A stretch of 64,000 bases of DNA from a virus. How positions within the stretch are numbered: position 1 is the stretch's first letter; the number at the start of each line of letters is the position of its first letter. The translations under genes were made by a program, and so were the position numbers. Below the pieces are notes generated by a model, which worked only from the letters and a program-made list of their open reading frames with translations, did no database searches and was not told where the DNA came from. The stretch lies in the IMG/VR virus record IMGVR_UViG_3300020061_000001, positions 35,007 to 99,006 of that record. One strand, written 5' to 3'. This document shows positions 6,263 to 35,323 of this stretch, in pieces.

Positions 6263-6594
6263 AATTATTAAAATCAGAAGAAGATTTATTAGAGTTTGAT
6301 AATGGCTTAGTTGTTAAAGGTGTTGGTGATGAAGACTGTTGCGCATCTAATTATCTAGACTTTGAACAATTTGAAGTTGGTCAAGAATTTCCAGACATGA
6401 CAGCTAAGCAATTTGCTAAAAAAATAACGCTCAAAGAAGATGGCTTTGCTCTAACATCTAAAGACGGTATGCCTAAGTGGTGTCAAGCGCGTTCAGTTCA
6501 AAACGGTTATTATTCTGACGTCACTACCGTGTATCTTGAGTATAAAGGCGAAGAGATTAAATTAGGTGACCTTAGAGGCGAACAGAGAGATTAA
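6259..6594 (+). CDS. Phage protein, family B paralog (111 aa)
   Basis: Near-twin of the gene at 26587: both open with MK(L/V)(L/I)KSE, share GDxDCCAxNYLDF, FEVGQEFP and PKWCQARSxQNGYYSD. The DCC plus WCQAR cysteines suggest a shared metal or disulfide site. DUF7448-like in appearance; function unknown. Confidence 0.7.
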   Translation: MKLLKSEEDLLEFDNGLVVKGVGDEDCCASNYLDFEQFEVGQEFPDMTAKQFAKKITLKEDGFALTSKDGMPKWCQARSVQNGYYSDVTTVYLEYKGEEIKLGDLRGEQRD

Positions 6595-6595
6595 T

Positions 6596-7573
6596 ATGGA
6601 AAAAGCATTAGCAATACAAAAACAAGTAATTGAAATTCTTGGCACAGAAGATGTCTATCTTGTTGGTGGTTCCGTTCGTGATATTGTTATGGGTAATGAA
6701 CCAAAAGATTATGACTTTACTACTCCTATGCTCCCAGACGATATCGAAGCAGCCGTTAAAAAGGCTGGGCGCAAGTCTTATGGTATTGGCAAGAAGTTCG
6801 GTACTATTGGTTTTAAGGTCCCAGTGAACATATCAGATGAAACTGGTGAAGTAGTCGCCACTGATTACGAATACGTTGAAGTAACAACTTTCCGTTCTGA
6901 GGTATACACAAGCAAGTCTCGCAAGCCAGAAGTAGAGTTTGTTGCTTCATTAGACGAAGACCTTGCTCGTCGTGACTTCACTATGAACGCGATGGTACTT
7001 CGTCCAGATGGGACTATCTATGACCCATACGGAGGCAAGCTTCATATCCACAGCAAGCAAATTGTAACTGTAGGGCTTCCTAAAGATCGTATTCAAGAAG
7101 ACCCTCTTCGCATACTTCGCGCGGCACGTTTTGCAGCTCGTTATAATTTTGAAATTGACCCCAATTTCATCGGTAAGGCAAGGCAACTCGCAGATCGTAT
7201 CTACGATGTATCTGTTGAGCGTTGGGTACAGGAACTTGATAAGCTGCTTATATCAGAGTCTGTAGAAAAGGGCATGACAAGTCTCCAAAAGATGGGGGTT
7301 CTTATAAGAATTTTACCAGAGGTAGAATCTGTGTTGAAAATATACCCATCGTTAAAAGATATTTTACTCTTTGAGGGTGATCGCAGGAATGGTAATCCAG
7401 ACTTTGCTTGGAAACACCTACTTAGTTGGAACGGTCTACCACACGTTAATGAATCTGATAGTTCACGTATTAAAATATCAAAGTATGTGAATATAGGTGT
7501 CTGTGCGCGATTAAAATTCTCCAACGAACGTACAGATATAATACTTGACAACAAGAAGAAAAAACAGGTATAA
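6596..7573 (+). CDS. cca: CCA-adding enzyme / class II tRNA nucleotidyltransferase
   Basis: 325 residues from the ATG at 6596 (the TTG at 6566 lies in the previous gene). All class II landmarks are present: G24-G-S-V-R-D29, metal pair D38-x-D40 (KDYDFTT), motif C RRDFTMNAM at 125-133, motif D-like EDPLRILRAARFAARY, and the ERW motif E segment. These enzymes add or repair the 3' CCA of tRNA. The C-terminal domain is shorter than in bacterial enzymes (~400 aa). With Pth2, RlaP-like and the HAD gene at 17162 it suggests tRNA upkeep during infection. The promoter for the next gene lies inside its last codons. Confidence 0.85.
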   Translation: MEKALAIQKQVIEILGTEDVYLVGGSVRDIVMGNEPKDYDFTTPMLPDDIEAAVKKAGRKSYGIGKKFGTIGFKVPVNISDETGEVVATDYEYVEVTTFRSEVYTSKSRKPEVEFVASLDEDLARRDFTMNAMVLRPDGTIYDPYGGKLHIHSKQIVTVGLPKDRIQEDPLRILRAARFAARYNFEIDPNFIGKARQLADRIYDVSVERWVQELDKLLISESVEKGMTSLQKMGVLIRILPEVESVLKIYPSLKDILLFEGDRRNGNPDFAWKHLLSWNGLPHVNESDSSRIKISKYVNIGVCARLKFSNERTDIILDNKKKKQV

Positions 7574-8409: not shown

Positions 8410-8687
8410 TACTATTAGGAGTTGCTGTTTGGCGATTAACTCGCATGTTGTGGTCTGAACGTGGCCCATTGGACATCTTTGTAAGATTTAGAGCAAAATT
8501 AGCTCAGCGTCAGAAACGTATGGGTGGGCTGTACGATCTTGTTAGTTGCTTTTATTGTCTCTCCATATGGGTTGCTAGTATATTTGCAATTTTTCTCGCT
8601 ACAAGTATCTTGACTTTCCTTATGTATACTCTTATACTTAGTGGTATAGCAGTCCTTATTTACGAGTTGCTCAATAAACAGAAATGA
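8391..8687 (+). CDS. DUF1360-like membrane protein (98 aa)
   Basis: N-terminal hydrophobic helix, RLTR motif, then LVSCFYCLSIWVA, the C-x-x-C-x-x-x-W signature of small DUF1360-type membrane proteins, then a second ~30-residue membrane segment. Function unknown. Confidence 0.6.
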   Translation: MDSWLLVLLGVAVWRLTRMLWSERGPLDIFVRFRAKLAQRQKRMGGLYDLVSCFYCLSIWVASIFAIFLATSILTFLMYTLILSGIAVLIYELLNKQK

Positions 8688-8699
8688 GTTATAATAGTT
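8667..8699 (+). promoter_or_regulatory. Sigma70-like promoter before the DNA-modification cassette
   Basis: TTGCTC at 8667-8672, 17 bp, TATAAT at 8690-8695. The first ATG (8700) comes only 4 nt after the -10 box. It lies inside the end of the previous gene and would drive the ParB-TET-glycosyltransferase operon. Confidence 0.65.
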
Positions 8700-8807
8700 A
8701 TGACATTATCACAGAGATTATCAATAAAAATAAACAATGCTCTTGTCGGAACCAGACATGGTAAACGAATGGGCCTGAAACGGATTGAATCAAATGCAAG
8801 TAAATAA
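8700..8807 (+). CDS. Small basic peptide gene (35 aa)
   Basis: Begins MTLSQRLSIKINNALVGTR and overlaps the ParB-like gene's start by 14 bases. Its translation would carry ribosomes into that gene. Basic and possibly nucleic-acid-binding, or a leader peptide. Confidence 0.45.
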   Translation: MTLSQRLSIKINNALVGTRHGKRMGLKRIESNASK

Positions 8808-9435
8808 CCCAAATAAATTGCCAACAGCGCCTATTACAGAGTTTGAAGCAAGCCAAGGTGAATTAAAATATCTTAGTAAAGATAACTACACAAAGCTAAA
8901 GAAAGCTATTGAAAAGAACGGTTTTGATATCCCTCTTGTAGCTTGGGTAGATGAAACTGGCCAGAAATGGCTCCTTGATGGTCACCAACGCCAACATGTT
9001 CTATTGAGAGAGGGTTGGAATGAACCAGTTCCTTATATGCTTCTTGAAGCGCCTGATATGAATGCAGCTATGGCTCGCCTTCTTCAAATTACAAGCCAGT
9101 ACGGTACGATCACGCAAGAGGGTATTGATAACTTTATTGCTACTTATGAGCTTCCAGAACTAGAAGTTTTTGAACTTACTAACTTTGATGGCATCCGTTT
9201 CTATGAACTTGGTGAAGAAGTACAGAGCGTTCCGGAAGACGGTCGTACTCCAGGTGATGCGCTATCTGACACAGAACTCCGTGATAGCATGAGCGTATCT
9301 CTTACATTTGATAAAGCTTCATTTGTAGAATTTATGACATTTGCAAATTACTTCCGTGAACTTTATGGTGTTGATACCGTTACAGATGCAATCGTGCAAG
9401 CTGTGAGGGAAAAATATGAAGACGCTATACGTTAA
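8794..9435 (+). CDS. ParB-like (ParB/Srx fold) DNA-binding/nuclease protein
   Basis: 213 residues from the ATG at 8794 (a TTG nine bases earlier is less likely). The N-terminal ~95 residues form a ParB-N domain: conserved entry (LKYLSKDNYTKLKKAIEKNGF), and the signature WLLDGHQRQHVLL (cf. GxxR/DGHHR of ParB-like proteins). The rest is helical. Such stand-alone ParB proteins are often linked to phage DNA-modification genes. It overlaps the TET/JBP gene by 20 bases, so it very likely works with it, perhaps in choosing sites. Confidence 0.75.
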   Translation: MQVNNPNKLPTAPITEFEASQGELKYLSKDNYTKLKKAIEKNGFDIPLVAWVDETGQKWLLDGHQRQHVLLREGWNEPVPYMLLEAPDMNAAMARLLQITSQYGTITQEGIDNFIATYELPELEVFELTNFDGIRFYELGEEVQSVPEDGRTPGDALSDTELRDSMSVSLTFDKASFVEFMTFANYFRELYGVDTVTDAIVQAVREKYEDAIR

Positions 9436-10279
9436 TCTATCTGAAACACCTAAGAATACTAAAGAACTTCTAAGCCAAAAAGCCTTCGAGAATGATGACC
9501 CTATCATCTCGGAGGATACTGTTATTATTGATGAGGTGTCTGGCGAAACGCTCCTTATTTACAAAGACACCGAAAAGAGCATTGATACAACAGGTATGAT
9601 TGAGGCTTTGAGCAAGGTCAAGTTCTCAGTCAATCGTCGCACGAACGGACTTGTTACTCAATCTGAAATTATTGGCTATCGTCCCCGTATGGTTGGTCTT
9701 GCAGGTAAGAAGACCTGCTCTAAGACTGCTTTTGGGAATAAATACAAGAGTATTGAAGATGAACTATTTGGAGTCGCCCATCTCGCCGAGGGGCTGTACT
9801 CCGAGTTTGCGCCATCTCGTTACCAGAACCACTCTGAACTTGCCACTAATGTTCGTGGTGAATATCTCATGCCAGAGACTCATTTTACCAGTGGAATTAT
9901 TAACAAGAACAATCCACTCAAATATCATATGGACACAGGTAACTTTAAAGATGTGTTCTCTATCATGCTTGGGTTGAAGAAAGATATCAAAGGTGGTTAT
10001 CTCCATATCCCAGAGCTGAAAGTTAATCTAAAGATTAGTAATGGTTCACTTTCTATGTTCGATGGGCAGCGTTTCGTCCACGGCGTGACCCCTATGAAGG
10101 GTACAACTGATAAATCTTATCGCTTCACAATCGTGTTCTACTCGCTTGTTCAAATGTGGAACTGTCTTGAAACTTCGCTCGAAGTAGCTAACGCTAAAAA
10201 GGCGGAAGACCGCAAACTTGAAAAGTTGCTTAGAATGATCGACGAGGAAAGGCAGAAAAATGCAGATAGCAATTCCTAG
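9416..10279 (+). CDS. TET/JBP-family Fe(II)/2-oxoglutarate dioxygenase
   Basis: 287 residues. Complete dioxygenase metal site: H171-M-D173 (LKYHMDTGNF) and H222 (FVHGVTP), with R236 (YRFTIVFYS) in the 2-oxoglutarate-binding position. GGYLHIPEL and LSMFDGQRFVHGV match the spacing of the double-stranded beta helix of TET/JBP enzymes, which hydroxylate 5-methylcytosine or thymine in DNA. The C-terminal ~45 residues are a charged helix. Flanked by ParB-like and glycosyltransferase genes with 20-base overlaps on both sides, the arrangement expected for phage base hypermodification. Whether the substrate is 5mC or T cannot be told from sequence alone. Confidence 0.8.
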   Translation: MKTLYVNLSETPKNTKELLSQKAFENDDPIISEDTVIIDEVSGETLLIYKDTEKSIDTTGMIEALSKVKFSVNRRTNGLVTQSEIIGYRPRMVGLAGKKTCSKTAFGNKYKSIEDELFGVAHLAEGLYSEFAPSRYQNHSELATNVRGEYLMPETHFTSGIINKNNPLKYHMDTGNFKDVFSIMLGLKKDIKGGYLHIPELKVNLKISNGSLSMFDGQRFVHGVTPMKGTTDKSYRFTIVFYSLVQMWNCLETSLEVANAKKAEDRKLEKLLRMIDEERQKNADSNS

Positions 10280-11021
10280 TTATCGTCGCGCAGATAAAAT
10301 ATTCGAACTAACCATAGCCTCACTTATTCGTAGTGGGGCTAATCTTGCTGATGTGACAGTCTTCATTAGTGACCCAAGCGAACACCAAGCCTATGTTGAC
10401 GGTGTAGGTAACATGGTGAAGATCGTTGATTCTGTTCCTACTAAAAGCAAGAATTTAAGCTTTATAATGAACTATTATCCAAAGGGAACACACATTCTAT
10501 TTGTTGATGATGATATTAAGTCCTTTGAGAAGCTATCTAAGGACGGCAAGAAGCTTGTAGAGACAAACCTAGACTTTGCCCGAAAAGGCTTTGAATTATG
10601 CGAGAGAGAAGGCCTGACAACCTGGGGAATTTATGCAGCTCGCAATGCTTTCTTTATGAAGCCGAGAATTACTAAGGGTTTATTCTTACAGGTTGGTAGC
10701 TGTTACGGTTTAATTAACACTGGCGCAGATTATCACCATGTCACCACAGATGAGAAGGAAGACTATCGCCGAGGGTTCCAAGTATTCGCCGAAGAGGGTG
10801 GAATGATTCGAATGGATTATATTACTGTGAACACTGCTTATTACAAAGAATCAGGTGGGATGCAGGAGCGTCGCACGGCCTTAATAATTGAAAGAGCTGC
10901 TAAACTTCTAGCCTTTAACTACCCACAATATTGCAAAGTTTACCAGAGCAAGGGCAAAGGTACATGGGAACTACGGTTAAATAATCATGTCTTTAAAACC
11001 GAGATTCTAGAGACTCTGTGA
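10260..11021 (+). CDS. TET-associated glycosyltransferase (GT-A-like)
   Basis: 253 residues beginning MQIAIPSYRRADKI, the GT-A opening strand, with the nucleotide-sugar/metal motif F81-V-D83-D-D85. The GSCYGLINTGADYH and EDYRRGFQVF segments fit the TAGT (TET/JBP-associated glycosyltransferase) group, which adds sugars to hydroxylated bases made by the dioxygenase. Its start overlaps the TET gene by 20 bases. The last 37 bases overlap, tail to tail, with the minus-strand HNH gene. Confidence 0.75.
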   Translation: MQIAIPSYRRADKIFELTIASLIRSGANLADVTVFISDPSEHQAYVDGVGNMVKIVDSVPTKSKNLSFIMNYYPKGTHILFVDDDIKSFEKLSKDGKKLVETNLDFARKGFELCEREGLTTWGIYAARNAFFMKPRITKGLFLQVGSCYGLINTGADYHHVTTDEKEDYRRGFQVFAEEGGMIRMDYITVNTAYYKESGGMQERRTALIIERAAKLLAFNYPQYCKVYQSKGKGTWELRLNNHVFKTEILETL

Positions 11022-11383
11022 TATTGCCTACAAGCTATGCCAGAGCGAAGTTCCAAGAGTATCCTCGCTGTTGGATATTGGACAGACTTATAATAGTTAC
11101 AATGGCTACAGCAGACTCGGAGATTTTTATAAGCGGAAGTGCCGTAAAATCTCCCAAGTGGGATGAAATGATCGGTATGCCAAGCACCGTCAATTGGGTG
11201 GAGACAGTAGAAGCATTTACCTCCTTGCTTACGATACTGATAGCTTCGCCATCTTTTAAATCCAGGAGTTAGTTTTTTGCGCTCGAACGCATCGCGTTTA
11301 CGTTTAAGAGTAGACGGAGATACAATCTGCATTTCCTTCTTAGTTGTCTTGACCCATGCGCCACCACTCTTGTATATAAACAT
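10985..11383 (-). CDS. HNH endonuclease (minus strand)
   Basis: 132 residues: basic N-terminus, then C-F-Y-C (GGKCFYCLHPIDG), catalytic HTDHFIPL, N-L-R-V-C-C-S-H-C-N, i.e. a zinc-bound HNH core with two CxxC pairs. Free-standing HNH genes in phages are commonly homing nucleases. It lies on the opposite strand at the end of the modification operon, consistent with a late arrival. A TACAAT lies 8 nt before its ATG. Confidence 0.8.
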   Translation of the reverse strand: MFIYKSGGAWVKTTKKEMQIVSPSTLKRKRDAFERKKLTPGFKRWRSYQYRKQGGKCFYCLHPIDGAWHTDHFIPLGRFYGTSAYKNLRVCCSHCNYYKSVQYPTARILLELRSGIACRQYHRVSRISVLKT

Positions 11384-33283: not shown

Positions 33284-35323
33284 ATGGCCGAGACTACTCA
33301 ACCCACTCCACAGCCAAAGAAAGACACTTTATCTGTATTAAAGGAAGCATTAAAGCTCGCTCAGGAGACGCATCTAGTCACTCCAGAGGAGAATGAAGCA
33401 AAGGTAGCTTCTGCTCTTAAAGACGCTAAAAAGCTCTTAAAACAGCTCAGGGGAGAGCCTGTAGCGAACTTCTTTGATATTGATTCAGAAGATCGTGCCG
33501 TTCCAGAGAATGGTGGTAATTGCCGTTGTTGTGGTGGTAAGGGTGAACATGATACTGGCGCAGAATGTTATGGTTGTGATGCTAGTGGTTTAGACCGTGA
33601 CTATGCTGGTCCAAACCCTTGCGACAACGCAAAAGAAAAAGAAGATGATGCAGAACATGATGAAAATGTAGGGTTTAATGGATTAATCATTAAAGAAGTT
33701 AATGCTAAAATAACTCCCGATGAACAGCGTCAAATAGACTTAGCTACAGAACAATTCAAGCAGAGTGTTCAAAGAGTAGACAATCAGATTCTTAACATGT
33801 ATGTACAAGCCGTACAGAATGGGGACTATGCCGAGGCAGAGGCGATTCTAGCCAATGCAATTGAATCACAGCAGACTAATACTCTTATGTTCGCACTTTT
33901 GACTATTGGGGTTATCCTGCTTCCTCTCTACGCACGTCAACGTATTAGTGCTCTATTCCGTCAGTTTGGGCTACACACTGTATTTGCTCGTACTGACAAA
34001 ACAGAGAATGATTTACGTCTGCAAGCAAAGCGCGGTGCAGAATCGCATGTTCGTACAATTGCTAAGGATATTAAGAACTCATTAGATGATGCTATCGACG
34101 ATCAGTTGACTAACCCATCTATTGAGGCACAAGTAAAGGACAAATATGAAGAAACAGCAGACAAAGATGGTAAAGCTTTCGTCACGAAAGTTAAATCCAA
34201 TACAGAGATTTATGCTTTCGCCCGTGACGCTATTCTTCGTGGGGAAACTCGTCAATCTGTTATTAAGGCGCTACAGGAAAACTTCTCGGAAATAGGGAAG
34301 AAACGCGCTAATGTAATTGCTGGCAATGAGGCTAATCGTGTCTTCACTATGAGCCAGTTCGATGCAGACCAGCAATTCCTCGCCCAGAATAAACTAACAC
34401 CAAAAGCTTATAAGCGTCTAGTAAGCAATACAGGACACCCAGAAGCTATTTGTAAGTACATCATCGACAAGACTGCTGCTGAACCTATTCCATTCACACA
34501 GGACTTTGTTCCATTTGGTAAGACTATTACTGTTAAAGACAACGGTAAGACATATAAGTTCACCGCCAACTACGAGAAGCTACAGAGCGGTCACATACAT
34601 GTAAACTGTCACTGTCGTTATGAACTTCTCATTAAGCAGGATGATGGTTCATTCTTCAACACCTACGATGGTAAGGTCCTTAATGAGGTTGCCTTTGAGG
34701 AAAAGAAGCACAAGCGCGATAAGGATGGCAAGTTCGCTAAGAAAGCAGGGGTAAAAGACCTCGACCTATCTGCTATAGATAATGTTAAAGACTTCAACAA
34801 GATGATTGAAACTGCTTACTTTGAGGGTTCTATGGGCCATCACAGCGAAGACGTAACAGATAGTGTCCGTGCTTATCAGGGTCACTTCTATGATGCCATT
34901 AACATACATGCTCGTAGCCAAATGCTAGATGACCCTCTTACCTTCTACGGTAATGAGAGTACTTACGGTGAAGTTATTGATAACATTAATGCTGCTGCTA
35001 ACATGTCATTGAGTAGCAAGGTACTTGTTTATAGAGGTACAGAGATTCCACACCACCAACTTCTTGATGTTGGAGAGGTAGTGAGTGCTCGTAGCTTTGT
35101 AAGTACTAGTGTCGATAAGAAGATAGCTGGTAAATTCCAACCTAAGGATGGTTCTATGTTTGTAATCACAGCTAAAAAGGGACAGAAAGTGATCGTCCCT
35201 GACTATGTTACTTATGGTAAGCGCGGGATTACAATGGGCGAAGCAGAGGTGTTAATGCCCAGCGATTCTGTCCTCACAATCACTAAGATTGATGGTGATA
35301 CTGTGTATGCAGAGCTAAATTAG
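33284..35323 (+). CDS. MuF-type head protein fused to an ADP-ribosyltransferase
   Basis: 679 residues in three parts. Residues ~80-115 carry a DnaJ-like zinc unit (CRCCGGKG, CYGCDASG). The middle has a MuF/minor-head domain: NVIAGNEANRVF helix, VSNTGHPEAICKYI, and the closing HVNCHCRYELL. The end is a VIP2/ARTC-like ADP-ribosyltransferase with all three catalytic marks: R584 (VYRGTE), S607-T-S609 (SFVSTS) and E653-x-E655 (MGEAEV). MuF proteins ride in the capsid and can be ejected with the DNA, so this domain may modify a host protein at infection. Follows the portal by one base. Confidence 0.85.
   Translation: MAETTQPTPQPKKDTLSVLKEALKLAQETHLVTPEENEAKVASALKDAKKLLKQLRGEPVANFFDIDSEDRAVPENGGNCRCCGGKGEHDTGAECYGCDASGLDRDYAGPNPCDNAKEKEDDAEHDENVGFNGLIIKEVNAKITPDEQRQIDLATEQFKQSVQRVDNQILNMYVQAVQNGDYAEAEAILANAIESQQTNTLMFALLTIGVILLPLYARQRISALFRQFGLHTVFARTDKTENDLRLQAKRGAESHVRTIAKDIKNSLDDAIDDQLTNPSIEAQVKDKYEETADKDGKAFVTKVKSNTEIYAFARDAILRGETRQSVIKALQENFSEIGKKRANVIAGNEANRVFTMSQFDADQQFLAQNKLTPKAYKRLVSNTGHPEAICKYIIDKTAAEPIPFTQDFVPFGKTITVKDNGKTYKFTANYEKLQSGHIHVNCHCRYELLIKQDDGSFFNTYDGKVLNEVAFEEKKHKRDKDGKFAKKAGVKDLDLSAIDNVKDFNKMIETAYFEGSMGHHSEDVTDSVRAYQGHFYDAINIHARSQMLDDPLTFYGNESTYGEVIDNINAAANMSLSSKVLVYRGTEIPHHQLLDVGEVVSARSFVSTSVDKKIAGKFQPKDGSMFVITAKKGQKVIVPDYVTYGKRGITMGEAEVLMPSDSVLTITKIDGDTVYAELN

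Follow-up and report, generated by a model that had tools for sequence, protein, structure and literature searches.

The analysed window, a stretch of 64,000 nucleotides with a GC content of 39.8%, corresponds to positions 35007–99006 of an IMG/VR virus contig of 99,006 bp (G000), which carries terminase, portal and tail genes and represents a tailed phage. A megablast comparison of a 24-kb stretch of G000 with 50,697 named phage records gave no match, and close relatives were contigs G001–G004 (loci L004–L007), with TET identities of 72–88%. Three genes lie on the forward strand at positions 8794–11021 of the window in the following order: a gene for a ParB/Srx-fold protein of 213 aa (8794–9435), a gene for a predicted TET/JBP Fe(II)/2-oxoglutarate DNA pyrimidine dioxygenase of 287 aa (9416–10279) and a gene for a TET-associated GT-A glycosyltransferase (TAGT) of 253 aa (10260–11021). 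The open reading frame of the first gene spans 8785–9435; the best start is the ATG at 8794, in agreement with L005, and not the TTG at 8785. As noted in the preliminary description of this DNA, which was made from the sequence without database searches, the genes are coupled by two overlaps of 20 bp each (9416–9435 between ParB and TET, and 10260–10279 between TET and TAGT). Both overlaps were kept in the relatives L005 and L006, which suggests translational coupling.

The same description placed the three genes under one promoter (TTGCTC-17-TATAAT, 8667–8695). The candidate –10 element TATAAT (8690–8695, forward strand) was indeed conserved in L005 and L006 amid otherwise divergent sequence; however, the –35 element is poor (TTGCTC, 8667–8672), and a promoter scan showed no excess over shuffled sequences (10 found versus 9.4 expected). 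The cassette promoter is thus only suggestive. An HNH endonuclease gene on the reverse strand (10985–11383) converges on the 3΄ end of the TAGT gene with a 37-bp overlap, and an HNH-type gene occupies the equivalent place in L005 and L006. At G000:32353–35353 (L003:12353–15353) and window positions 6566–7573, we observed an RNA repair set (RNA ligase, PNK-phosphatase and CCA-adding-like genes) together with a 281-aa protein in which only an N-terminal S-adenosylmethionine synthetase domain was detected.

The family membership of the proteins was assessed with profiles, alignments and structural models; an NCBIfam search with all three gave no match. The dioxygenase matched the Pfam family Tet_JBP (PF12851) with E = 4.4e-18 and 65.5 bits, against a curated cut-off of 34.9, and a profile built from 13 TETs matched TET2, Naegleria Tet1 (NgTet1) and the algal CMD1 in the PDB. 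Its H171-x-D173...H222...R236 site, which had been described as intact, comprises the HxD...H iron triad and the arginine for 2-oxoglutarate. A loss of these residues was looked for on alignment, and all four were identical in 93 of 93 homologues. TET/JBP homologues (PHROG 6059 and RefSeq Bclasvirinae gene 2) are widely labelled 'queuine tRNA-ribosyltransferase', apparently a propagated misannotation.

The third protein likewise scored above the curated cut-off of its Pfam family, TAGT (PF20691; E = 5.3e-9, 36.7 bits versus 27.5), and in PHROGs it matched a family named beta-glucosyl-HMC-alpha-glucosyltransferase (E = 8e-9); a sequence search of the PDB matched no chain. The V-D-D-D previously pointed out in a GT-A-like enzyme occupies residues 82–85, and D84 of this acidic DxD-type motif was invariant in 23 homologues. 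The AF2 model (pLDDT 92) had the expected fold, and Foldseek matched it to GT-A enzymes (POMGnT1 first, followed by GnT-I, COLGALT1 and others) with TM-scores near 0.5, which indicate the fold and not the sugar specificity. Surface glycans or virion proteins are frequent targets of phage glycosyltransferases, and other enzymes of such type are encoded on G000; the TAGT could therefore be imagined to act on a phage protein or the cell surface, unconnected with the oxygenase. We consider this very improbable, since the TAGT frame overlaps that of the TET gene, the protein matches a TET-associated family, and 32 of 54 loci have a member of this family next to TET.

For the first protein, a Pfam search with the single sequence did not detect the ParB identity; however, the ParB-like assignment of the preliminary description was borne out by other means. 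The protein matched the ParB-like PHROG 723 (E = 2.7e-7), a profile of its family matched Noc/Spo0J/ParB in the PDB with E values of approximately 1e-15 (with weaker matches to SbnI and sulfiredoxin), and PF02195 was found in 19 of 36 family members. The AF2 model (pLDDT 81) also had the expected fold, the ParB N-terminal fold of the ParB/Srx superfamily, with Foldseek matches to ParB, Noc, KorB, SerK and Srx. The GxxR motif of the superfamily is well preserved (G66 in 36/36 and R69 in 31/36 members), and the window protein has DGHQR (DGHxR) where partition ParBs have GERR, as seen in Noc. Among 65 non-redundant TETs, 55 loci were testable, and in 50 of these a ParB gene was located no more than 2.5 kb upstream, whereas 495 kb of background sequence contained no ParB match. 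This near-invariant position beside TET argues for a function together with the oxygenase. The ParB-like protein is a near-obligate TET partner, probably a DNA- or nucleotide-binding factor that would load or target the oxygenase, with targeting as our best guess.

TET relatives were found in at least 500 loci of viral contigs (512 stretches in one scan). A single scan of cellular genomes identified only five distant relatives, mostly in Actinomycetota, which are too few for naming a host. Near the TET genes of 54 loci, a TAGT-type glycosyltransferase was observed in 32, a GT-B-like glycosyltransferase in 5, a kinase in 9 and ADDT in 9, so that the third gene of the cassette is modular. In two loci (L051 and L056, including one 327-kb contig), two TET genes stand in tandem, accompanied by several ParB genes and by kinase/ADDT genes. 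Named phages carry comparable sets: ParB-TET-GT-PIG-L in the mycobacteriophage Acadian and in the Arthrobacter phages Altadena and Klevey, where a small ORF or a gap separates ParB from TET; ParB-TET-ADDT-kinase in CaiB; and ParB-TET-kinase in Kharcho. In Acadian (Bclasvirinae), genes 1–3 belong to the same three families as those of the window, in the same order and overlapping or near-abutting, with identities of only approximately 27% (TET) and 34% (TAGT). The thymidine hypermodification sets of Gordonia cluster DR (CaiB) and the Rhodococcus phage Tonitrus have the same ParB-TET core at the head, but ADDT/aGPT-Pplase2 and a 5hmU DNA kinase as third and fourth genes, where the window has TAGT. 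Published descriptions assign such gene sets to nucleotide or thymidine hypermodification (PMC9302106; PMC11955845), and the cassette therefore belongs to a known kind. Iyer et al. 2013 (NAR 41:7635; cited in PMC9302106) reportedly predicted TET/JBP-TAGT systems, which likewise combine an oxygenase with a TET-associated glycosyltransferase for in-DNA hypermodification. The cassette type is thus already described, but the phage that carries it here is a new, lower-GC environmental lineage. The role of the ParB partner and the substrate base appear to be undescribed in the accessible literature.

The preliminary description was undecided as to whether the oxygenase acts on 5-methylcytosine or thymine, and our results narrow the choice to thymine. 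It had also proposed a search of the genome for a cytosine methyltransferase. No C5-cytosine methylase (PF00145), which a 5-methylcytosine TET system would require of the phage, was detected on the 99-kb G000 or in its relatives G002–G004; the family was present in 5 of 51 TET records overall and in none of the ten phage genomes carrying a homologue. These absences disfavor 5-methylcytosine, but G000 is a fragment and may be incomplete, so a methylase could lie outside the contig or come from the host. A TS-fold dCMP/dUMP hydroxymethylase (PF00303) was also not found on G000, which makes T4-type modified-nucleotide synthesis, with hydroxymethylation at the nucleotide level, unlikely.

Further evidence comes from the third gene. 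In the sister phage L007, whose TET is 72% identical, a P-loop kinase takes the place of TAGT after the TET gene. As a single protein, this kinase had no match in Pfam or, by sequence, in the PDB; with our own profile, it matched the kinase family of the CaiB/Kharcho type (E = 1e-23), which is found alongside ADDT in gene sets like those annotated as 5hmU DNA kinase systems (PMC11955845). ADDT and Ploopntkinase3 neighbours have counterparts in the genes of Tonitrus that are annotated as a set for thymidine hypermodification (PMC11955845). Kinase and glycosyltransferase genes were nearly exclusive (1/9 versus 35/45; Fisher's exact test, P = 3e-4, relatedness not corrected), and at least five switches between them were required on a TET tree, a quick one with several long branches, on which 'KIN' denotes kinase or ADDT and rows labelled 'both' were excluded from the five. 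An over-long ORF probably explains the 'both' label of Acadian as an artefact. Most simply read, these data mean that TET would make one hydroxymethyl base, 5hmU, extendable by either module. The lack of a C5-methyltransferase and the exchange of the glycosyltransferase for modules of the 5hmU pathway thus favor thymine as the likelier target.

Alternatively, the same cassette might oxidise 5-methylcytosine, provided by a host or unseen phage methylase, to yield glycosylated 5hmC as in 5mC-TET phages. The PDB neighbours of the TET family, TET2, NgTet1 and CMD1, are compatible with this possibility, and in L018/L019 a ParB, a C5-cytosine methyltransferase, a second ParB and TET form one gene group, so some members of the family may act on 5-methylcytosine. 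However, given the missing methyltransferase in G000, three close relatives and ten phage genomes, and the 5hmU-type DNA kinase in the sister phage, we regard this alternative as unlikely.

We further considered the sugar. A PIG-L deacetylase gene is located outside the window at G000:27605–28246, approximately 16 kb from the cassette, and encodes intact PHFDD and HPDH motifs (PHFDD as read from the translation). In the phage collection, this protein matched only three records of two TAGT mycobacteriophages, plus one Vibrio phage. In the actinophages with the closest TAGT (Acadian, Altadena and Klevey), PIG-L directly follows the glycosyltransferase, and in L057/L058 and L092 it follows TET and a GT-B-like gene, assigned from sequence motifs with no match in Pfam. 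Together with GlcNAc transferases, POMGnT1 among them, as best fold matches of TAGT, these observations raise the possibility that the sugar is N-acetylglucosamine, later deacetylated by the phage PIG-L to leave a positively charged amino sugar on the base. The match to a GT-A fold is nevertheless generic, and the PIG-L gene of G000 belongs to another glyco-gene group (G000:25952–32284, L003:5952–12284; outside the window) with a GT-methyltransferase fusion, a SAM methyltransferase and GT4-like and GT2-like genes. The PIG-L slot, located between this fusion and the GT4 gene, varies among relatives and is occupied by a nucleotidyltransferase (NTP transferase) in G003 and by an FkbM-like methyltransferase, assigned by eye, in G002. 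Moreover, the co-occurrence of PIG-L and TAGT across all records was not significant (P = 0.16–0.29). Because the PIG-L gene is distant and two relatives lack it, we treat an amino-sugar base as only a hypothesis, and a rather doubtful one. Its full form is less probable still: TET would produce 5hmU, TAGT would add GlcNAc and PIG-L would deacetylate it on the DNA, giving a cationic amino-sugar thymine at sites to which the ParB-family protein guides the oxygenase.

Taken together, family membership and gene context support the preliminary interpretation, and it is likely that the cassette modifies the phage's own DNA after replication. TET/JBP would hydroxylate a pyrimidine at its methyl group once the base is part of the DNA, and this base is most likely thymine, which would become 5-hydroxymethyluracil; TAGT would transfer a sugar from a nucleotide-sugar onto the hydroxymethyl group, giving a base-J-like base; the ParB-like protein would probably load or target the oxygenase; and the glycosylated base would shield the phage DNA from host nucleases. 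In the base J pathway of kinetoplastids, thymine in DNA is hydroxylated by JBP1/2 and then glycosylated by JGT. The proposed scheme follows the same logic, but the cassette is viral, lacks a J-binding domain, uses a GT-A TAGT and includes a ParB partner. To our knowledge, no member of this TET/JBP-TAGT clade has been solved or assayed.

ParB-TET cassettes are common among environmental virome phages, judging from the number of related loci in a single scan. The natural exchange of a glycosyltransferase for a DNA kinase beside closely related TETs offers a clean comparative test of the substrate, and the system can be directly assayed in cultured actinophages that carry the same genes, such as Acadian and Altadena.
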